A stretch of DNA of 64,000 nt. Source: Aestuariibaculum sediminum (GTDB lineage: Bacteria; Bacteroidota; Bacteroidia; Flavobacteriales; Flavobacteriaceae). Where the stretch lies: NCBI RefSeq assembly GCF_014596945.1, contig NZ_JACVXB010000006.1, forward strand, positions 63,770 through 127,769. The letters run 5' to 3'. The position numbers and the translations under genes are program-made. The notes under the pieces were generated by a model. That model saw only the letters and a list, made by a program, of their open reading frames with translations, ran no database searches and was not told where the DNA came from. Below, piece after piece: positions 45,528-57,786 of the stretch (its first letter is position 1; every line of letters begins with the position of its first letter).

Positions 45528-46703
45528 TTAATCTTCATCAATACGGTTTTCATCAAAGGCCGATGGTAATAACTTTGGAATAAATTTTACCACTAAGGGT
45601 AGTAAAATAGCTCCGCCGGGAAGCAAAAAGATTGCTAAACTTGGTATCGATTTGAAAATATCCAACAATTGTTCTTGAACTTTTTTCTGTTCCTCGGAAG
45701 TTAAATCCCGAATAGTAGACTGACTTAAAAGCACCATTAGCTCTTTACTATCTTTAAGTTCCTGGTATAATCGCTTACTATTTCTGGTAATAAGCTTTTT
45801 TACCATTTTACTCGAGTTGTTGTAAAAACTCTGAACCATATTTTTCGACCCTAATATGGCAATTTTGTCTTTATGTAGGGTGTAAAATGTGTTTACAGTT
45901 TCCAAGGACTTTTTAATAAGCGTGGTCTCAATATTCAAATCTTGACCTAACTGTATTAAAAAGCGTTTCTCGTTACTATCTATAGTTTTGTCAGTCCATG
46001 CTGCCATACATGCTAAATCTAAAATATATTGCTTTTCTAAAGGCGTTTTTATATTTGAAATAGCCTTGTCGTATGTTATGTTTTCGTGATCCTGATAGCG
46101 TAACGACGATTCTATAAGCCGAATTAAACTCTCATCATATTGGTTTTTTATGTCTTTTGAGTTTAATACATCTAGAGATATACATTCAATAGAAGCTTCT
46201 AGATTTTTAATGTAATCTATAGAAATAGATTTATTCTTTAAATACGCATCATAAGTTAATACATCAATATATAATAACGCATTAATTATAAAGTAATTAA
46301 AGTTTTTAGTTAAAATATTAGCATCTATCTGTATACGCTTGTGAATAAGCTTTTCAAGTTGTTCGTTTGATTTTTTACCCCCAAGTAATTCATCGAAAAA
46401 CGATGTTTTCTTTTCGCTAATTTCGGTGTAAAAATTAATAACGCTTTCTACAAAAGGAATGTGCGTCTCAGCTTTATAATGGGTGTGAAGCAGGGCAAGA
46501 CAAAGGTTTACTTTACAGAGTTCTTCTTCTATTAAGTCACCCTTTTCAACAAGTTTTAAAACCACTTTCAAATTACTGCCATAAATAAAACCGCAATCTC
46601 TTAAAGCTATGTAAAAAGACGTTTTACTAATGCCTTCCAGATTTTTATCTGGTTTAACTTCTTTAAGTAATTTTTTTATCCAACCGTTTGCAGAGGGATT
46701 CAT
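45528..46703 (-). CDS. LETM1-related biofilm-associated family protein
   Basis: 391 residues, no signal peptide, mostly helical. The N-terminus MNPSANGWIKKLLKEV and the central part LDLACMAAWTDKTIDSNEKRF (a TerB-like helical unit with conserved acidic residues), then the end LLPGGAILLPLVVKFIPKLLPSAF, which is the LETM1-like ribosome-binding-type tail, together match the flavobacterial LETM1-related biofilm-associated family. The name derives from related genes affecting biofilms; mechanism unknown. It is a single-gene unit, convergent with the LytTR gene and divergent from the DUF4331 cluster with 145 bases between. Confidence 0.75.
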   Translation of the reverse strand: MNPSANGWIKKLLKEVKPDKNLEGISKTSFYIALRDCGFIYGSNLKVVLKLVEKGDLIEEELCKVNLCLALLHTHYKAETHIPFVESVINFYTEISEKKTSFFDELLGGKKSNEQLEKLIHKRIQIDANILTKNFNYFIINALLYIDVLTYDAYLKNKSISIDYIKNLEASIECISLDVLNSKDIKNQYDESLIRLIESSLRYQDHENITYDKAISNIKTPLEKQYILDLACMAAWTDKTIDSNEKRFLIQLGQDLNIETTLIKKSLETVNTFYTLHKDKIAILGSKNMVQSFYNNSSKMVKKLITRNSKRLYQELKDSKELMVLLSQSTIRDLTSEEQKKVQEQLLDIFKSIPSLAIFLLPGGAILLPLVVKFIPKLLPSAFDENRIDED

Positions 46704-46848
46704 ATCACATGGTTTTATGGGTGTAAATGTAATGTTTTCAATGAAAATTAAGCAATATTTTTCTTTAACAAAATTTTAACAAAACCGATAGTTTCTTTTT
46801 TTCGTAGGTATGGGCAAGAAACAAAATTAAATACCAATTTATCAGATT

Positions 46849-47535
46849 ATGAGAAAATTAAGAACAGTTTTAGGATTAGGAGTTTTAGCAGTGGCTAGTT
46901 ACTTCGTTGTTGCAGCCGACCATATTGATGCTCCAGAGGTGCAAGGTGGTTCAAGCGATATTACAGATTTTTACGCCTTTCAAGGTGAAGATACCAATAA
47001 CATGGTGTTCGTAGCTAATGTGCAGGGACTTTTAAGTCCTGCTAATACGGCTTCAGCAAGTTTTGATGAAAGCGTTATGATTGAATTTAACATTGATAGC
47101 GACAACGATTTTGTTGAAGATTACGTCATTCAGGCCATTCCAAAAAATGGAAAAATGTATGTTATCGGACCAAAAATGCCTACTCAAACAGGTTTAAATA
47201 GTATGGTAGTAGCTAGCGATATTGAAAACGCAGCAGTTACCAATATTACACCTTACGGAGCGAATGCTTTAATAGGAAGCAAAAATGGAGTTAGTGTTTT
47301 CGCTGGTCCAAGAGATGATCCTTTCTTTATGGATTTTGCACGTTATGTTCAAATTGTTACTCCAGGCGATGATGACGGTGATGGCATGGAAGAAGGTGCA
47401 TTTTTACCAGATGGTATGGCTTCAGATACCTTCGCAGGAACCAATGTGATGTCTGTTGTAGTTGAAGTGCCTAAATCAACCATAGGAGGAAGCGGAACTA
47501 TTAACACCTGGGTAGAATCGAAAAGAAAACAATAA
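46849..47535 (+). CDS. DUF4331 family secreted protein
   Basis: 228 residues with a signal peptide (1-23, no lipobox Cys). DUF4331 core begins at residue 24: DHIDAPE, then SSDITDFYAFQGE, and FNIDSDNDFVEDY (Asp83-Asp91) and GDDDGDGMEEGAF (near 175), both like calcium-binding Asp-rich loops. The family has no established role; the invariant His-x-Asp near the start suggests a metal site. First of four same-strand genes (DUF4331, DUF4331 lipoprotein, TPR lipoprotein, TonB receptor). It appears to hold the N-terminal half of longer DUF4331 proteins, with the second gene supplying the other half. Confidence 0.8.
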   Translation: MRKLRTVLGLGVLAVASYFVVAADHIDAPEVQGGSSDITDFYAFQGEDTNNMVFVANVQGLLSPANTASASFDESVMIEFNIDSDNDFVEDYVIQAIPKNGKMYVIGPKMPTQTGLNSMVVASDIENAAVTNITPYGANALIGSKNGVSVFAGPRDDPFFMDFARYVQIVTPGDDDGDGMEEGAFLPDGMASDTFAGTNVMSVVVEVPKSTIGGSGTINTWVESKRKQ

Positions 47536-47562
47536 AAACTAATTAACGAAAAACACACGATT

Positions 47563-48117
47563 ATGAAAAATATTAAAATACTAGCAGCACTTCTAATAAT
47601 ACCATTTTTAGCATATAACTGTAGTGATGACGACGATATGAAATATGAAATGAAATGGCCTGATTTATCGGGTACTTATGTGCAGGAAGACCAAATGGGA
47701 AGACCGGCTGTAAATACTGTTTTTGTATCGGCTGCAAGCAAGGATATGTTTAACGTAACTATACCATCCATGCAAAATGCATCATTCCAAAGTATGTTTC
47801 AAACGAATTTGGAAGCTTTAAGCCCTGCCTATGCCAACGCAGGTGATAAAAATGCTTTAGGTTTAGATGCGGCAGCTTTTACAGGTGTACTGGCAACCGA
47901 CGTATTAAATGTATCGTTAGATGGAACCACAACCTTTTATGACGGAACTAATGTATTAACAGGACGAAATTTATCTGATGACGTTATTACCGTTGAGTTA
48001 CTGTTAATTTTTGGTGGTGAAGACTTTTCAGAAAATCCTGGGTTGTCTGATGATAATGTAGATGCCAACGATAAAGCCTTTTTAGCCTCATTTCCTTACC
48101 TCGCTTCACCTTGGTAA
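47563..48117 (+). CDS. DUF4331-type surface lipoprotein
   Basis: 184 residues with a lipoprotein signal ending AYNC (Cys20), followed by SDDDD. Bacteroidota lipoproteins with an SDDDD or SDDFE sequence directly after the Cys are exported to the cell surface, so this protein is predicted to face outward. The body has LSGTYVQEDQMGRPAVNTVF, LTGRNLSDDVITVELLLIFGG and the end DDNVDANDKAFLASFPYLA, which I know from the C-terminal part of DUF4331 proteins. It lies 27 bases after the first DUF4331 gene. With the receptor at 49505 it occupies the place SusD has in Sus-like systems; that role is inference. Confidence 0.75.
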   Translation: MKNIKILAALLIIPFLAYNCSDDDDMKYEMKWPDLSGTYVQEDQMGRPAVNTVFVSAASKDMFNVTIPSMQNASFQSMFQTNLEALSPAYANAGDKNALGLDAAAFTGVLATDVLNVSLDGTTTFYDGTNVLTGRNLSDDVITVELLLIFGGEDFSENPGLSDDNVDANDKAFLASFPYLASPW

Positions 48118-48131
48118 TTTTTAAATTGAAA

Positions 48132-48165
48132 ATCAGGAACCAAATAAATTCATTTGGTTTCTGAT
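48132..48165 (+). other. Intercistronic hairpin within the DUF4331 cluster
   Basis: ATCAGGAACCAAAT (48132-48145), six-base loop, ATTTGGTTTCTGAT (48152-48165): 14 pairs including one G-T. It is not followed by a T-run, so more likely an mRNA stability element or partial attenuator that keeps the two DUF4331 messages more abundant than the TPR and receptor genes. Confidence 0.55.
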
Positions 48166-48200
48166 GTTTCTAAACTAACAACAAACAAAAACATAAAACC

Positions 48201-49490
48201 ATGAAATTTCTATATATAATCTCGATTTGTATGCTTGCTTTATTTGCGAGTTGTACAAATTCAAAAGAAAAAATAACAGACCCTGATGCATATTCGCTTT
48301 ACTTGGAGGCGGAATCTAATGAAGCGGAACAACAAACGTTGCAAGATTTAGAATTTTGGCAGGAAAAATTCATTCAAACCCCCAATCAATTTCCCTATCT
48401 GGCAAAAATTGCGGGAGCTTACAATCAGCTTTTCGGAATTACGGGAGAAGTTGCCTATTTAAAACAAGCCGAGGACACCTTCGAAACATTAAACGATAAG
48501 ACGCACTACTCCAATTCAGCCTATTTAAAAGGCCTTGCAGGAACTTATATTTCGCAGCATAAATTTAAAGAGGCCTTAGCGGTATTGAAAAAAGCGGAAG
48601 CAAATGCAGATAAGCTGGAAGGTACTCAGAAAATGCTTTTTGACGTGCATCTGGAATTAGGGAACTATGAGCTCGCAAAAAGTTATTTAGATAAATTTAG
48701 TAACGATGCCGATTTCGATTATTTAATTCGTGTCGCAAAATGGTCGGATCATAGAGGGGATTTAACCGCGGCAATAAAATATTTAGAACAAGCTAAAATC
48801 AGGGCAGAGCAGTCTAACTCTAAAAGCCTGAAACAATGGATTTATACCAATTTAGCTGATTTTTATGGACATAATGGTCAAATTAAAGCCTCGTATAATC
48901 ATTTCCTGAAAGCATTAGCGCTAAACCCAAATAATGCCTATGCTAAACGCGGCATTGCTTGGATTGTGTATTCGCACGAGAAAAACCCGGACGAAGCATT
49001 ACGCATATTAAATGCTGTTACCCAAACCTACCACGCTCCAGATTATTATTTGCTTAAAGCTGAAATCGCCGAATTTAAAGGCGATATGAATCTTCATAGG
49101 CAAGCATTAAAAGCATATCAAACGGCAGTTAATAATCCTATGTACGGAGATATGTATAATACTTATAATGTGTCACTTTATGCCAATAATGTGGAGAAAT
49201 TAGATGAAGCATTAAAACTGGCTGAAATAGAGGTGGCCAATCGTCCAACTCCAGAATCCTATAGTTTATTGGCATGGACATATTATAAAAAAGGTTTTAA
49301 AAGACGGGCATTAAAAATTGTAAAGGATCGCGTTGCCAATAAAACGTATGAGCCGCAAAGCTTACTTCATTTAGCACACATTTATAAAGCTAATAATAAG
49401 TTAAAAGAAGTAAAACATTTGAAAAACGAATTACTTGAAAGTATTTTTGAATTAGGCCCCTTAACGGCAAAAGAAATCAAAAACATTTAA
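48201..49490 (+). CDS. TPR-repeat lipoprotein
   Basis: 429 residues; lipoprotein signal ending LFASC (Cys18), followed by TNSKEK, which is not a surface-export signal, so probably periplasm-facing. At least eight tetratricopeptide-like helical pairs from ~50 on: YLKGLAGTYISQHKFKEAL, AVLKKAEANADKLEG, YNHFLKALALNPNNAYAKRG, PESYSLLAWTYYKKGFKRRA. TPR arrays dock other proteins. It lies between the DUF4331 lipoprotein (83 bases) and the TonB receptor (14 bases), so it may bridge the receptor to periplasmic partners. Function not known. Confidence 0.85.
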   Translation: MKFLYIISICMLALFASCTNSKEKITDPDAYSLYLEAESNEAEQQTLQDLEFWQEKFIQTPNQFPYLAKIAGAYNQLFGITGEVAYLKQAEDTFETLNDKTHYSNSAYLKGLAGTYISQHKFKEALAVLKKAEANADKLEGTQKMLFDVHLELGNYELAKSYLDKFSNDADFDYLIRVAKWSDHRGDLTAAIKYLEQAKIRAEQSNSKSLKQWIYTNLADFYGHNGQIKASYNHFLKALALNPNNAYAKRGIAWIVYSHEKNPDEALRILNAVTQTYHAPDYYLLKAEIAEFKGDMNLHRQALKAYQTAVNNPMYGDMYNTYNVSLYANNVEKLDEALKLAEIEVANRPTPESYSLLAWTYYKKGFKRRALKIVKDRVANKTYEPQSLLHLAHIYKANNKLKEVKHLKNELLESIFELGPLTAKEIKNI

Positions 49491-49504
49491 CCAAAAAGTC
49501 AACC

Positions 49505-51739
49505 ATGAACCCATTAAAAATTATGACATTTATTTTCGTCATAACATACACTGATTTTTCATTTTCACAACAGTACAAAGGTGTTGTTGTGAATCAAAAT
49601 AAGCAACCTTTGGAAGCGGCGTATATTTATAACTTAAACTCTAAAAGTCATGCGCATTCACTGGAAAACGGTGTGTTTGTTTTAAACCAGAGCTCGGTAG
49701 GCGATTCTATAAAAATCGGACTTTTAGGTTTTAAAAATCGGTTTTTGGTTTTAAGCGCTTCAAATTTCAATACAGAACAAACGATTGTATTAGAAGAGAA
49801 ATCATTTCAATTAAGTGAACTTATAATTAGCGAAACATTAAATCCGGTAAGTACTATATCGCGTCTAGATTTAGAAACTACTCCGGTAAATTCCTCGCAG
49901 GAAATTTTAAGAAAAGTCCCTGGTTTAATTATAGGACAACATGCAGGTGGAGGAAAAGCTGAGCAAATATTTTTACGAGGTTTTGATATCGATCACGGTA
50001 CCGATGTGGCACTGTCGGTTGATGGTATGCCGGTAAATATGGTGTCGCATGCACACGGACAAGGGTATAGCGATTTACACTTTATTATTCCGGAAACTAT
50101 TAATAAAATTGATTTTGGAAAAGGATCATATTATGCGAATAGAGGAGATTTTGCAACTGCAGGATATGTAGATTTTTCAACTAAAGATTATTTAAAAGAG
50201 AATGAAATCGGGGTGTCTCTTGGGCAGTTTAATACTTTGCGAACACTGGGTTTATTTAACCTTTTGGAGCACGATGCCGATAAGAGTGCTTATCTCGCCG
50301 CGGAGTATTTGGCTACCGATGGGCCGTACGAATCCCCTCAAAATTTTAATCGATTAAACTTGTTTGGAAAATACAGTAGTTATTCTCCTAATAACGATAA
50401 GGTTTCAATAACCTTATCGCATTTTACCAGTCGTTGGGATGCATCAGGACAAATTCCGCAGCGCGAAGTAGACAATGGCAATATTAGCCGATTTGGCGCT
50501 ATAGACGATACCGAAGGAGGTAATACACAACGCAGTAATTTAAACGTTGCTTTTAATAAGCACGTATCCGATAACACCATGCTAAAAACGAATGCTTTTT
50601 ACTCGCATTATGGCTTTGAATTATACTCTAATTTCACCTTCTTTTTAGAAGATCCTGTTAATGGAGATCAAATAAAACAACAAGAAGATCGGCACATATT
50701 TGGACTTAATACGACCTTGACAAATGAGGTGTTTTTAGGTGATGTAGAATTGAAAATGACTTCGGGTATGAGCTTAAGACATGATATTGTTAACGATATT
50801 GAATTGTCGCATACTTTAAATCGAAAAACCACTTTAGAATCTATACAGTTAGGAGATTTAAATCAAACAAATTTTGGCGCGTTTAGTAGTGCACAACTAG
50901 ATTTTGGTAAGCTAACGATCGCGCCAGAATTACGTATCGATTATTTTAAATTTATGTATAACGATAAGCTGGAAGAAAATTACAAAACGCAAGCCGAAAC
51001 AAAAACGTTGTTAAGTCCCAAACTTAACTTTTACTATACAGCACTTTCAAATTTGCAAGTTTATGTGAAATCCGGGCTTGGTTTTCATTCCAACGATACT
51101 CGTGTGGTTGTTAGTCGGATGGGGAAAGATATTTTACCACGTTCTTATGGCGCCGATTTAGGAAGTGTGTGGAAACCGACTCCCAAGTTAATCGTTAATT
51201 CGGCATTGTGGTATTTGTTTCTGGAGCAAGAATTTGTATATGTGGGGGATGCCGGTATCGTTGAACCTAGTGGAAAAACCGAGCGTTATGGTGCCGATTT
51301 TGGTTTGCGCTATCAATTAACAGATTACCTGTTTTTTGATACCGATGCCACTATTACTAACGCAAGAAGTTTAGAGAGTCCAAAGGGTGAAAATTATATT
51401 CCTTTGGCACCAGATTTTACTTGGACAGGAGGTTTGTCGGTTAACAAATGGAAAGGATTTTCAGGTGGATTAAGATTTAGATATGTAGACGATCGGCCAG
51501 CGAATGAAGATAATAGTATTGTCGCGAAAGGTTATTTTGTTTCTGATTTTAATGTTAATTATAATTATAAGAAAGTAACCTTAAGTGTAGCTATAGAAAA
51601 CCTATTGGATGCAGAGTGGAACGAAACACAGTTTGCCACAGAATCACGATTATTTAATGAAACTGCACCGGTAGAGGAAATTCATTTTACGCCGGGTACT
51701 CCATTTTTTATGAAAGCGACGGTTAGCTACCGATTTTAA
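49505..51739 (+). CDS. TonB-dependent outer-membrane receptor
   Basis: 744 residues with a signal peptide (to about FSFS-QQ), a carboxypeptidase-regulatory-like domain (residues ~25-100), a plug (SSQEILRKVPGLIIGQHAGG, IFLRGFDIDHGTDVALSVDG) and a 22-strand barrel ending MKATVSYRF with terminal Phe. The plug has unusual His-rich text, MPVNMVSHAHGQGYSDLHF, which might help bind a metal. The TonB box is probably in the region after residue 100. Size is much smaller than SusC (~1000 residues), like siderophore or metal receptors. Its substrate is unknown; it closes the DUF4331/TPR cluster. Confidence 0.9.
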   Translation: MNPLKIMTFIFVITYTDFSFSQQYKGVVVNQNKQPLEAAYIYNLNSKSHAHSLENGVFVLNQSSVGDSIKIGLLGFKNRFLVLSASNFNTEQTIVLEEKSFQLSELIISETLNPVSTISRLDLETTPVNSSQEILRKVPGLIIGQHAGGGKAEQIFLRGFDIDHGTDVALSVDGMPVNMVSHAHGQGYSDLHFIIPETINKIDFGKGSYYANRGDFATAGYVDFSTKDYLKENEIGVSLGQFNTLRTLGLFNLLEHDADKSAYLAAEYLATDGPYESPQNFNRLNLFGKYSSYSPNNDKVSITLSHFTSRWDASGQIPQREVDNGNISRFGAIDDTEGGNTQRSNLNVAFNKHVSDNTMLKTNAFYSHYGFELYSNFTFFLEDPVNGDQIKQQEDRHIFGLNTTLTNEVFLGDVELKMTSGMSLRHDIVNDIELSHTLNRKTTLESIQLGDLNQTNFGAFSSAQLDFGKLTIAPELRIDYFKFMYNDKLEENYKTQAETKTLLSPKLNFYYTALSNLQVYVKSGLGFHSNDTRVVVSRMGKDILPRSYGADLGSVWKPTPKLIVNSALWYLFLEQEFVYVGDAGIVEPSGKTERYGADFGLRYQLTDYLFFDTDATITNARSLESPKGENYIPLAPDFTWTGGLSVNKWKGFSGGLRFRYVDDRPANEDNSIVAKGYFVSDFNVNYNYKKVTLSVAIENLLDAEWNETQFATESRLFNETAPVEEIHFTPGTPFFMKATVSYRF

Positions 51740-51982: not shown

Positions 51983-53029
51983 TTAATTTATTGCTTTCGG
52001 AAAGTATTTTTTACGTAACCAAAATGAAACCCTAACGAGTAAAATTAATGCAGGAACCTCCACTAGAGGGCCAATTACACCAGCAAAGGCTTGTCCGGAA
52101 TTTAATCCGAAAACAGCAATGGCAACAGCAATGGCTAATTCGAAATTATTTCCAGCAGCTGTAAATGCCACCGAAGCTGTTTTATCGTATGTGCCGCCCA
52201 TTGCTTTGGTAAAGAAAAATCCAATAATAAACATAAGAGCAAAATAAATAAGCAGCGGTATAGCAATGATTAAAACATCCATTGGAATTTCGACAATTAA
52301 TTCACCTTTCAGAGAAAACATTACAATAATAGTAAACAATAAGGCGATTAGGGTTAATGGCGAAATAGCAGGAATAAAATTATTTGTATACCAGTCTTCA
52401 CCTTTTAATTTTACAAGGATGAAACGACTTAAAATACCTAATGCGAACGGAATACCTAAATAAATAGCCACACTTTCAGCAATGGTACCAATCGAAATAT
52501 CTACAATTGCACCTTCAAAACCAAAATATGGCGGTAAAACGGTAATGAAAATCCAAGCATAGAAACTATAAGCAAACACCTGAAAAATACTGTTTAAAGC
52601 AACTAGTCCAGCGCCATATTCACTACTTCCTTCAGCCAGATCATTCCATACTAAAACCATAGCGATACATCTGGCCAGACCAATTAAAATAAGTCCTACC
52701 ATATATTCTGGATAATCTTTTAAAAAGGTAATTGCCAGTATGAACATTAATATTGGACCAATCACCCAGTTTAGTATTAATGAAACCGAAAGTATTTTGG
52801 TGTTTTTAAACACAGCAGGTAACAGTGCATAATTTACTTTTGCCAAAGGCGGGTACATCATTAAAATTAATCCAATAGCAATTGGGATATTTGTGGTGCC
52901 ACTACTCATGGTTTGGATAAGGTTGGGGAATTTTGGGAAAAAATACCCTATGCCTACACCTATTGCCATGGCAACAAAAATCCATAAGGTTAGGTTTCTA
53001 TCTAAAAAGCTTAATTTTTTTGTGGCCAT
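51983..53029 (-). CDS. acr3: ACR3-type arsenite efflux permease
   Basis: 348 residues, ten membrane helices, no N-terminal extension. The key Cys121 is in [18 protein letters not shown], and [20 protein letters not shown] and [16 protein letters not shown] are the other ACR3 signatures. It exports arsenite using the proton-motive force. Last gene of a four-gene minus-strand operon arsR - DUF6428 - reductase - acr3; two bases separate it from the reductase gene. The ordering and tight packing support an arsenic-resistance operon. Confidence 0.93.
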
Positions 53030-53031
53030 AA

Positions 53032-53649
53032 TTATAATTTAATTTTTGAAAAGACATAACATAATTCGGTGGCAATTTGAAGACTTCTTTCAAGGTATTT
53101 TTCATCCTGATAAGGTGTGTTATCAAATGCTTTAGGATCTTCAAATGTTATCGGAATACGTTTTTCGGCGCCCGGAATAAATGGGCAGCCTTTATCTGCT
53201 GAAGAGCAAGTCATGATAGCTGCAAATTCCGAATTCGGATTAAATGCGTCGTCATATGTTTTGGAAAAACCAATTACTGGGTGTTCATTATTACTGTATT
53301 TGATACTGTAAATAGGATTGTTGTTTTCAGCTATCTTAGTGATATGGAACCCTGTGTTTTTTAAAGTTTCTGCCGCTTTAGGGAAAAGGGCAGTCGCTTC
53401 TGTACCACCAGAATAACAAAACACCGATGTAATATTAAAATAATGTGCCATTGCTTGTGCCCAAACCTGTGATAAATGGCTGCGACGCGAATTATGGGTA
53501 CATATAAAATTTAATCGAATGTCTTTTTTTGCATTTACTTGATCCTGAATATAATTTATTAAGGGTTGTAAAATGAGTTGTCTTTCTTTACTTGTGTTTT
53601 CAGGAGATAGGCTCTGAATCGTTTCTTCAATCTTAGGAAATAATGCCAT
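53032..53649 (-). CDS. arsC: Low-molecular-weight phosphatase-like arsenate reductase
   Basis: 205 residues. The phosphatase loop CX5R appears as [16 protein letters not shown] (Cys50), followed by [19 protein letters not shown] and later [15 protein letters not shown] with further Cys. This is the protein-tyrosine-phosphatase-like ArsC branch seen in Bacteroidota; it is longer than the ~135-residue thioredoxin-dependent ArsC because of an N-terminal helical part (~40 residues). It reduces arsenate to arsenite, the substrate of the ACR3 pump encoded next. Start ATG 53649, 26 bases after the DUF6428 gene. Confidence 0.82.
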
Positions 53650-53675
53650 GTTATATGAATCTATAAGTATTTAAA

Positions 53676-54143
53676 TTAGCAACAACCGCTTCCCGGAATA
53701 CAGGCGTTTGCATTTTGTAATTCTGATAATTTTACTTTTGGTTTTTCAGTAGGAATACCACAGTTGTCTTTTGCTAAACAATCGGTTTGTTTGTTGGTTA
53801 ATAAGAAGGTTTTTCCATCGAAATCTAATCCAAATTTACCTATAGTTTCTCCTTGATATTCTACTTCAATTTCATAGTTTTCTAATCCTAATGTTTTTTC
53901 TGAAAGCTCAATAATATGCATTAGTTTATCGGGGTGTAATCGGTGGTCGTAATCGTTCGCATTCCACAATTGAAAATTTATAATATTTTCATGACGCACT
54001 GTGCCACCACAGTCAATAAATGTTTTATCAATTTTACCAATTTCGGTAACGTGAAAATGACTTGGAACTAACTCTCCATTAGGCAGCTGAAATGCTATAG
54101 TTTCTATGTCTTGTAAAGCATTTTTTACTTCTGATAGTTTCAT
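53676..54143 (-). CDS. DUF6428 family protein of the arsenic operon
   Basis: 155 residues, cytoplasmic. DUF6428 marks: QLPNGELVPSHFHVTEIG, CGGTVRHENIINFQLWNAND and YDHRLHPDKLMHIIELSE. The tail is Cys-rich: a Cys pair in DCLAKDNCGIP, and it ends ACIPGSGCC with a vicinal Cys pair. DUF6428 genes are typically in arsR-led operons; function not established. A Cys-rich end close to arsR and reductase genes suggests arsenite binding or delivery, which is inference. Thirty-four bases from arsR upstream and 26 from the reductase. Confidence 0.85.
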   Translation of the reverse strand: MKLSEVKNALQDIETIAFQLPNGELVPSHFHVTEIGKIDKTFIDCGGTVRHENIINFQLWNANDYDHRLHPDKLMHIIELSEKTLGLENYEIEVEYQGETIGKFGLDFDGKTFLLTNKQTDCLAKDNCGIPTEKPKVKLSELQNANACIPGSGCC

Positions 54144-54177
54144 GATTTTATTAATTTAAATAGTTAATGATAAAGAA

Positions 54178-54507
54178 TTAACAGCAGGTGGTATTTGGTA
54201 AATCCTGATTTAAAAAATGAGTCATTAAAGTTTTCATTTTTGACCAGGTTTCTGGGTTTATACAATAGCATACACTAGTTCCTTCAACCGAACCTTTTAT
54301 CAGTCCTAACTGTTTTAATTCTTTTAAATGTTGCGATATGGTAGGTTGTGCTAAACCTATTTCATTAACCAAATCACCACAAACACAAGTTTTAATTTTA
54401 AACAGGTGCTGAAGTATAGCCACGCGTGCTGGATGCCCAAAGGCTTTGGCAAATAAGGCAATTTCGTTTTGGAGGTCGGTAAAGATTTCGGTTTTTGCTA
54501 ATCCCAT
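54178..54507 (-). CDS. arsR: ArsR-family arsenite-sensing repressor
   Basis: 109 residues with a winged helix-turn-helix: KAFGHPARVAILQHLF, then CVCGDLVNEIGLAQPTISQHLKEL and GLIKG. The Cys41-Val-Cys43 in the alpha-3 position is the classic ELCVCDL-type As(III) site. The C-terminus NTTCC adds two more Cys, perhaps a second arsenite-binding point. It represses the operon it leads until arsenite binds. The ATG overlaps one arm of an inverted repeat that is a likely operator. Confidence 0.93.
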   Translation of the reverse strand: MGLAKTEIFTDLQNEIALFAKAFGHPARVAILQHLFKIKTCVCGDLVNEIGLAQPTISQHLKELKQLGLIKGSVEGTSVCYCINPETWSKMKTLMTHFLNQDLPNTTCC

Positions 54508-56453: not shown

Positions 56454-57254
56454 TTATCCTAAGTTTACAACACCTAGAGTGTAAAGGAATTCCATAGTTG
56501 GTGTTTCGCTACCTCCTGCTGGTTCTAAAGTTATTCCAAAAGCTTCACTATTATTAGAATTTTCTATTTCAAAAATTTTATTATTATCACTTATAAAATT
56601 ATCAATAGTACCTAGACTGGTAGGTGTTAATGGGTTTAGTGTTAATGACCAAACCTGATACACCTTACCTTCTGGTGGTTCTGGTAATCCTTGAGCGTCT
56701 AAAAAAATGCGATTACTCTCTTTGTCCCAATACACGTTTGCATAGGTGTTGGAAAAATTACCTTGTCCTGTTAATGGCACCTTGGTAATGTTATTATCAC
56801 GTAATACCGAAATTAACGTATTGGCTTCTTCTAAACTGTTTTTAGAATTGGCTATTTGCGTTTCTAATAATTGCTGTTGGGTGTTCGCAATTTGAATTTC
56901 GGATTCTAATTTATTATTTTGTTTAAGTGTCCAGAATAATCCGATGGTAAGTAAAACGGAAGCTGCCCATCCAGTATATGTAACCCAATTATATCTAGGC
57001 ATTTTTACGACTTTGACATTCTTATCTTTTAAGTCGAGATGCGATTTTATTGCTTGTAAAGTTTTCTCATTGTTTTTAACTGGCGAAACCGAAGCCGTAA
57101 GCTTTATCACGGCTGCTTCAATGTCCAGAACTTCTTGAAGTATTTCAGGATATTGTAGCATCAGGTTATACACTTCTTTATTTTCTTTTTCAGAAAGTGC
57201 TCCTGCCACATATAGCTCCAATATTCCTGATTCTATGTAAGCTTTTATATCCAT
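56454..57254 (-). CDS. RskA-type anti-sigma factor
   Basis: 266 residues. A cytoplasmic sigma-binding part (MDIKAYIESGILELYVAGALS, split at ILELY), one membrane helix at about 90-109 (VTYTGWAASVLLTIGLFW), a coiled-coil (KLESEIQIANTQQQLLETQI region, ~115-150), and an extracytoplasmic RskA-like domain with ANVYWDKESNRIFLDAQGLP and EPPEGKVYQVWSLTL, ending in strands and FLYTLGVVNLG. Lacks the zinc ZAS motif. It should hold the sigma factor at the membrane until a periplasmic signal triggers its cleavage. One base from the sigma stop; same operon. Confidence 0.85.
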   Translation of the reverse strand: MDIKAYIESGILELYVAGALSEKENKEVYNLMLQYPEILQEVLDIEAAVIKLTASVSPVKNNEKTLQAIKSHLDLKDKNVKVVKMPRYNWVTYTGWAASVLLTIGLFWTLKQNNKLESEIQIANTQQQLLETQIANSKNSLEEANTLISVLRDNNITKVPLTGQGNFSNTYANVYWDKESNRIFLDAQGLPEPPEGKVYQVWSLTLNPLTPTSLGTIDNFISDNNKIFEIENSNNSEAFGITLEPAGGSETPTMEFLYTLGVVNLG

Positions 57255-57255
57255 T

Positions 57256-57786
57256 TTATTTTAATACCATATTTCTTAATTCCTGTATGCAATTTCGGTT
57301 TCGAGTTTTAATCGTACCTAAAGGCATGTTTAAAGTTTCCGAAGCTTCAACTTGTGTGTAGCCTTTAAAATAAAGAAGCTCTAAAACCGCTTTACACTGT
57401 TCGCCTAATTTTTTTACGAATGCTTTAATGCCGATCGCATCCGTCGATCTATCTAAATTGTCTTTGGTTTCAAGAATATCTACGAAAAAATTAGCATTGA
57501 GGTTTTGCTTTGATTTTTTAAAAGCCTTTGATCGCGTTTTATCTATCGCTGCATGTCTTGCAATATTAAGAATCCATGTGAAAAACCGACCCTTTTCAGA
57601 AGAATAACTATCGGCATTATGCCAGGCCTTAATAAATACATCCTGCATGACTTCTTCGGCTATATCGATGTCGCGAACAATATTGAAGATGACCCCCTGC
57701 ATACTTTCACTATACATATGATATAGTTTTTCGAAGGCTTTTTCGTCTTTCTGTTTAAACTTTTCAATTAAGGTGTCAAGATTCAT
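57256..57786 (-). CDS. ECF-type sigma factor paired with RskA-like anti-sigma
   Basis: 176 residues. Region 2: EKAFEKLYHMYSESMQGVIF, AEEVMQDVFIKAWHNADSY and GRFFTWILNIARHAAIDKTR; region 4: LELLYFKGYTQVEASETLN followed by MPLGTIKTRNRNCIQELR. This matches SigK/RpoE-like ECF sigmas. It is the first gene of a sigma/anti-sigma unit. The preceding 506 bases hold no gene, only a terminator for the purB side. The signal and target set are unknown; the sulfatase 3' on the same strand is a candidate target by position. Confidence 0.93.
   Translation of the reverse strand: MNLDTLIEKFKQKDEKAFEKLYHMYSESMQGVIFNIVRDIDIAEEVMQDVFIKAWHNADSYSSEKGRFFTWILNIARHAAIDKTRSKAFKKSKQNLNANFFVDILETKDNLDRSTDAIGIKAFVKKLGEQCKAVLELLYFKGYTQVEASETLNMPLGTIKTRNRNCIQELRNMVLK

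Follow-up and report, generated by a model that had tools for sequence, protein, structure and literature searches.

A split DUF4331 domain in a Flavobacteriaceae operon with a probable ECF sigma factor of its own: a candidate metal-capture module of the cell surface

The 64,000-nucleotide stretch of the Aestuariibaculum sediminum genome analysed here (contig NZ_JACVXB010000006.1, positions 63,770 to 127,769; hereafter the window) contains four rightwards-transcribed genes with short spacers whose products match the Pfam families DUF4331, DUF4331, tetratricopeptide repeat (TPR) and TonB plug, and the question that they raise is what such a set of proteins does. The initial annotation recognised the common direction and close spacing of the genes, proposed an uptake system laid out as SusC/SusD with DUF4331 in place of SusD, and stated that no described function of DUF4331 is known; in keeping with the last point, neither DUF4331 nor PF14224 is named in any paper of the open-licence PubMed Central (PMC) library searched. 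We propose that this is an operon controlled by an extracytoplasmic function (ECF) sigma factor and encoding a cell-surface metal-capture module, a tentative reading to which we assign a probability of about 0.42.

The products of the first two genes (DN and DC) both match DUF4331 as annotated, but they are complementary halves of one domain and not two DUF4331 proteins: DN covers positions 2-237 and DC positions 247-421 of the 421-position PF14224 profile, both score over the cut-off, and the domain is covered only by the two jointly. In the window they share a reading frame in which one TAA separates them, an arrangement that a recent nonsense mutation in one gene could produce. We compared it with other Flavobacteriaceae, PF14224 being present in 81 of 199 sampled genomes of the family; the 80 family loci are that of the window and 79 others, with one genome contributing two and L047 (our locus designation, as elsewhere) excluded, its DN having been missed by a simple longest open reading frame caller. 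The gap between DN and DC in 80 neighbouring pairs falls across the three frames as 30/28/22, and since there is no frame preference the shared frame in the window is a matter of chance. The recent mutation is rejected because the split is family-wide (DC is present in 79/80 loci), DN and DC carry a signal peptide each, and the offset between their frames is random; as judged from these sequences the split is old and conserved in the family. Outside the family, 18 of the 26 PF14224 genomes in a sample of the phylum have a fused form and 8 the split form. DUF4331 in other phyla is mostly a single protein, often with a TPR protein encoded after it, and a split is also found in Croceicoccus marinus, an alphaproteobacterium; its first half likewise has AADH where the signal peptide ends, and its second half is a lipoprotein. 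In three loci (L035, L041 and L237) the DN-DC pair is duplicated in tandem, with one TPR gene following.

A structural model of the DN-DC sequence, with the intervening stop codon read through (pLDDT 73.9, pTM 0.75), has best VIA-align scores of Z ≤ 7.8 (7uwu_B, with 179 aligned at rmsd 4.5), which antibody domains equal, and we claim no fold; the aligned ranges run from residue ~34 to ~358 and touch both halves.

The constant unit consists of the N-half, the C-half and the TPR lipoprotein, and the TonB receptor is optional. The TPR gene adjoins DUF4331 in 76/80 family loci, and in 22 of 25 Bacteroidota loci from outside the family it follows DUF4331 in the same orientation (15/17 with fused and 7/8 with split forms). 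Plasmids extend the comparison further: three partly overlapping scans gave 2, 37 and 17 plasmid records with DUF4331 matches, from which 21 were hand-picked for spread and annotation, comprising 19 loci from other phyla and two Adhaeribacter plasmids. A TPR gene adjoins DUF4331 in 10 of the 19, three of these (L298, L299 and L300) below the Pfam cut-off. A receptor of the SHAHGQGY type is adjacent in 26/80 family loci, or 27 if the unlike 1011-aa receptor of L102 is counted. Consistent linkage of DUF4331 to the receptor, set beforehand as a test of the uptake proposal, was not found: of the 81 genomes with DUF4331, 26 have the receptor next to it and 30 only elsewhere, and in the other 25 none of the five best-scoring candidates of the genome matches at E ≤ 1e-150.

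Short receptor-like genes are present in 5/80 loci (L035:8963-9391, L040:8376-8831, L041:9664-10173, L081:2181-2678 and L083:10332-10811), standing where the receptor gene would be and encoding proteins of 142-169 aa with signal peptides, whose similarity to the receptor profile is confined to its last 109-147 positions; they were included in the profile that scores them, so that the E-values are not independent. They are possibly shrunken receptors.

Several features point to a location of DUF4331 outside the outer membrane. The signal peptide of DN in the window ends ...VAADHIDAP, and a lipobox (called by regular expression) is found in only 2/82 DN proteins of the family. A lipobox is recognised in 58/81 DC relatives, 43 of which have at least three acidic residues directly after the cysteine; among the TPR lipoproteins the acidic run is present in just 2 of the 64 (from 76) with a lipobox. 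The C-SDDDD start of the window DC, which does follow a lipobox, had been annotated as a known surface-export signal, and it equals the Bacteroides fragilis lipoprotein export consensus SDDDD, which is functional on a reporter in Capnocytophaga according to excerpts of PMC5080379. DC thus has the acidic stretch after the lipobox cysteine that marks surface-exported lipoproteins (LES), and is predicted to lie at the surface. In long fused Bacteroidota DUF4331 proteins the type IX secretion system (T9SS) type A sorting domain TIGR04183 scores over the cut-off in all ten scanned, of 20 such proteins; the shorter copies in L176 and L179 lack such a tail by eye. In the plasmid set, the DUF4331 gene adjoins type II secretion genes in 5 of the 19 loci from other phyla, all Rhodobacterales (L296, L301, L302, L303 and L304). 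Three lineages therefore show sequence signs of DUF4331 export by three different routes. Four of the five Rhodobacterales loci have a gene of 70-76 aa after DUF4331, which encodes a lipoprotein in L296, the one inspected.

Table 1. Positions of the operon, its putative regulators and neighbouring genes in the window.
Feature	Positions	Strand	Basis or remark
ECF-type promoter-like motif AAACC-N16-CGTAGGTA	46782-46810	+	Sole exact match in the 64 kb, both strands
DN, secreted N-half of DUF4331 domain, 228 aa	46849-47535	+	PF14224 profile 2-237
DC, lipoprotein C-half of the same DUF4331 domain, 184 aa, C-SDDDD	47563-48117	+	PF14224 profile 247-421
TPR lipoprotein, 429 aa, without acidic export signal	48201-49490	+	Pfam TPR match
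TonB-dependent receptor, 744 aa, SHAHGQGY plug motif; optional member	49505-51739	+	PF07715
RskA-type anti-sigma factor	56454-57254	-	PF10099 RskA_C
ECF sigma factor, probable reader of the promoter	57256-57786	-	Best NCBIfam model SigK, below cut-off
LETM1_RBD-matching neighbour	45528-46703	-	
Arsenic-type cluster	51983-54507	-	

DN is preceded by an ECF-type promoter-like motif, which in the window reads AAACCGATAGTTTCTTTTTTTCGTAGGTA (Table 1). When 250 bases upstream and 60 bases inside each called gene were searched in the family loci, the pattern AACC-N15..17-CGTA was found before 74/82 DN genes and before no DC (0/82), TPR (0/77) or receptor-type (0/36) gene. Among other genes it occurs in 46/1108, of which 31 belong to the anti-sigma cluster and 10 to a divergent DUF547/glycosyltransferase pair. 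A stricter form, AACC[AG]-N15-CGTA, precedes 50/82 DN genes and 7/1117 others. The 31 matches before anti-sigma genes fall within the sigma gene and are provisionally taken for conserved coding sequence. At the divergent pair (L095:8546-10201 and similar loci) the motif is upstream in 5/8 members of each of the two clusters, and this pair is a possible second target of the sigma factor.

The probable reader of this promoter is encoded nearby; neither it nor the promoter motif was recognised in the initial annotation. The sigma factor in the window contains ECF sigma regions 2 and 4 and its neighbour an RskA C-terminal domain, and the pair is separated from the operon by the arsenic-type cluster and a sulfatase gene. 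An ECF gene with an adjoining RskA-type anti-sigma gene is present in 61/80 family loci, in every one of these oriented opposite to DN; among the named loci, L216 has the pair on the same strand, and the Flavobacterium pair is divergent and directly upstream. An anti-sigma orthologue is present in 76 of the 81 DUF4331 genomes and in 15 of the 118 others (kinship not corrected), with scores in two distinct peaks (at least 249 bits and at most 115 bits). A variant motif, ATCCA-N15-CGT[AT], precedes 13 of the 46 DUF4331 genes from outside the family (8/25 Bacteroidota, 3/19 plasmid loci and both Adhaeribacter plasmids), these matches not being independent (L195-L198 are of one genus, as are L293 and L308, and L292 and L309 are two plasmids of one strain). 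In a control of 434 genes the variant occurs four times, three of them before plasmid-locus DUF4331 genes within the set and the fourth before the ECF gene of L293. Seven non-family loci have an adjacent ECF/anti-sigma pair, and the variant is found in six of these (L180, L184, L191, L293, L298 and L308) and is missing from L177. In both Pseudoalteromonas loci the ECF gene as well as DUF4331 is preceded by the same ATCCA-type motif, the arrangement that self-regulation would produce; among the named loci the ECF gene is preceded by the motif in 1/28. The operon is probably switched by its own ECF sigma factor, to which the motif conservation and the Pseudoalteromonas arrangement point indirectly. 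In the open-licence PMC library searched we found no paper joining RskA, Flavobacter and ECF sigma.

A Cu/Zn superoxide dismutase (SOD)-type gene, one member of which matches Pfam Sod_Cu, lies directly upstream of the ECF gene in 26/61 loci, the window not being among them, and the Flavobacterium loci have a neighbour that is presumably glutathione-peroxidase-like. Together with the frequent absence of the receptor, these genes favour the main rival reading, an envelope- or oxidative-stress regulon in which redox or envelope damage would be sensed by the ECF/RskA pair and DUF4331 would be a protective surface protein, with metals involved only indirectly, for example through copper buffering. 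We regard this as somewhat unlikely, for it leaves unexplained both the HupE/UreJ or nickel-type permeases found beside DUF4331 in Actinomycetota, Cyanobacteriota and Pseudomonadota and the receptor paralogues linked to histidine-rich proteins, which are described below.

The case for metal capture begins with those permeases. A HupE/UreJ gene adjoins DUF4331 in 6 of the 19 plasmid loci from other phyla (Marinobacter, Rhizobium, Croceicoccus, Lichenicola, Comamonadaceae and Pseudoalteromonas HL-AS1), and a nickel-type permease does so in a further 4 (annotated as such in three Streptomycetaceae and with a NicO domain in Nostoc); 4 of the 19 (L209, L293, L305 and L306) have neither a permease nor type II secretion genes. 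All ten permeases have a histidine right after an alanine that resembles a signal-peptide end. According to excerpts of PMC12537917 (Nat Commun 2025), HupE/UreJ-2 proteins with His1 'anglerase' domains bind Cu2+ (Kd 62-74 nM) and in one case Ni2+ (220 nM); nickel is also bound by secreted proteins of the DUF4198 family, which have TonB receptors as neighbours. The most nickel-induced gene of a Sphingobium is reported to encode a HupE/UreJ domain (PMC5557971, whose main text does not contain the string DUF). DUF4331 has a histidine of its own in a similar place: DHx[DE] is found near the signal-peptide end in 81/82 DN proteins (L100 has DQ), and SHREAP in most fused forms. An Xaa-Xaa-His N-terminus is a copper- and nickel-binding motif, and cleavage at A/ADH or A/SSH would give DUF4331 such an end. 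These neighbourhoods and motifs suggest an undescribed metal-capture system, with copper or nickel as the likeliest candidate metals. In three loci of one genus (L194, L195 and L197) DUF4331-TPR is followed by a gene for a small histidine-rich protein and by genes presumably of the resistance-nodulation-division (RND) efflux type.

A number of observations weigh against this proposal. The metal role of DUF4331 is predicted from sequence and gene neighbourhood, and the SOD and glutathione-peroxidase-like neighbours fit a stress role as well. The DUF4331 histidine is at mature position ~2-3 and not clearly at position 1, cleavage having been judged by eye. Permeases are missing from 9/19 plasmid loci and from 18/25 non-family Bacteroidota loci; in the latter HupE is present in 7/25, and only four of those seven have a histidine after the signal peptide. 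The window locus contains no HupE or NicO gene. PF13795 matches in the same genome are on contigs other than the operon's, and the HupE gene examined there (L290) encodes neither a signal peptide nor a leading histidine. HupE_UreJ_2 is moreover near-ubiquitous in the family (179/199 genomes), so that its co-occurrence with DUF4331 is uninformative there. A PDB structure search with the DN+DC model gave no match at E ≤ 0.001, and a search of the PDB with a DUF4331 sequence profile nothing below E 0.5. Finally, a genome-wide search for AAACCN{15,17}CGTANGTA returned four exact matches in the A. sediminum genome and five for a reversed control, with no clear excess in 40 relatives. The promoter pattern alone defines no regulon, and is informative only by its conserved place before DN.

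The receptor also bears on the metal link. The PF07715 match and the fold of its model (pLDDT 82.8), which is closest to PqqU (Z 35.2, rmsd 2.9, 602 aligned) with FecA and BtuB also among the nearest, identify it as a TonB-dependent receptor with a plug and a transmembrane beta-barrel. The plug was correctly described as containing histidine and has a histidine-rich SH[AG]HGQGY motif; H146, D161, D163, H164, D167, H182, H184 and H192 are invariant in an alignment of 60 sequences. The DUF4331 halves lie within six genes of the receptor in 35 of the named receptor loci (the best 80 matches listed). A further 43 of the best 80 are paralogues with no DUF4331 or TPR gene nearby, and 11 of these 43 have a small histidine-rich protein (6.5-14.4% His) directly upstream (L245, L259, L260, L264, L266, L267, L269, L271, L273, L283 and L286). 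Five loci (L261, L264, L282, L283 and L288) contain genes that by eye are nonribosomal peptide synthetase (NRPS)-like, together with a HupE/UreJ protein of 412-447 aa, near an SHxHGQGY receptor, and are candidate metallophore loci. The metal theme of the initial annotation is supported by the neighbourhoods, with permeases at 10/19 plasmid loci and histidine-rich proteins at 11/43 paralogues; the SusC/SusD type of uptake with which it was coupled is not.

The best NCBIfam models for the receptor are haem-type TonB receptors, far under their cut-offs, and they raise the alternative that haem or an organic metal complex is captured in haemophore-like fashion with the DUF4331 pair as extracellular binder, for which the receptor paralogues beside NRPS-like genes and HupE in five loci could also speak. 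Such sub-threshold matches are common to many TonB receptors, however, and no recurrent haem importer appears in the neighbour tables, though no search was aimed at one; we consider this improbable. A nutrient uptake pair of the SusC/SusD kind, in which DUF4331 would be the binding lipoprotein, is very improbable: a lipoprotein with a surface-export signal is indeed encoded near a TonB receptor that has a CarbopepD_reg_2 match slightly below the Pfam cut-off and a SusC homologue as its top PDB sequence match (residues 9-175 only), but TPR is the constant partner with the receptor adjacent in only 26/80 loci, the receptor at 744 aa is closest to the PqqU, FecA and BtuB folds, no SusD model is among the Pfam matches of the four proteins (E ≤ 0.01), and because the receptor is optional 'DUF4331 in place of SusD' is unsupported.

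Under the metal-capture reading, a signal would release the anti-sigma factor and the ECF sigma factor would then transcribe the operon. The DUF4331 halves would meet outside the outer membrane and rebuild one mainly beta domain, which would bind a transition metal, the histidine near the mature N-terminus (A-D-H, or S-S-H in fused forms) being a possible ligand. The TPR lipoprotein may serve as a scaffold on the periplasmic side. Where present, the TonB receptor would carry the metal, or a complex of it, across the outer membrane. Entry into the cell would then be through a permease of the HupE/UreJ or NicO type; such a permease is linked to DUF4331 in other phyla and is encoded outside the locus in this genome. 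A more elaborate version, decidedly improbable in our estimation, is a two-piece protein metallophore under a dedicated ECF switch. The free, secreted N-half would catch metal around the cell and would have to dock on the tethered C-half for the DUF4331 domain to be complete, the tether thus serving as receptor for the free half, and the complex would hand the metal to the cell.

Two features of the surroundings complete the description of the locus (Table 1). The LETM1_RBD-matching neighbour upstream of the operon is conserved and belongs to a cluster with 61 members in the family loci. The arsenic-type cluster encodes an SBF-family transporter, which we take to be ACR3-like, a 205 aa protein with no Pfam match at E 0.001, a DUF6428 protein and an ArsR-type regulator.

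DUF4331 is met in four phyla and is unnamed in the open-licence PMC library searched. It now gains a core partner in the TPR protein and sequence signs that it reaches the outer surface, together with a probable regulator, whose promoter can be recognised, and a candidate role in metal handling. That a surface domain is conserved in the form of two halves, each exported separately, is in itself unusual. Parts of every kind seen here are known; their combination, the surface domain divided in two and its regulator are undescribed in the same library. We file the system as a variant of extracytoplasmic metal-capture systems and place it outside the anglerase family. It resembles the anglerase-HupE/UreJ-2, DUF4198 and DUF6702 systems (as described in excerpts of PMC12537917) in that a protein outside the cytoplasm has a histidine close to, if not at, its mature N-terminus and, at some loci, HupE/UreJ-type permeases or TonB receptors as neighbours. 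It differs in that DUF4331 is another family, seems to be exported past the outer membrane, comes in two pieces in Flavobacteriaceae, would have its histidine at position ~2-3, and has TPR and ECF/anti-sigma partners; metal binding is predicted for it. As in the Bacteroides BtuB-BtuG and SusC-SusD pairs, a surface-type lipoprotein is encoded near a TonB receptor, but here the receptor is optional and of FecA/PqqU/BtuB size and the lipoprotein makes up one half of a DUF4331 domain; there was no match to SusD, and no search was aimed at BtuG. The regulators resemble SigK-RskA pairs in their adjacent genes, ECF sigma regions 2 and 4 and anti-sigma RskA_C domain, and differ from them in their presumed target, the DUF4331 operon, and in lying on the strand opposite that target in 61 family loci.

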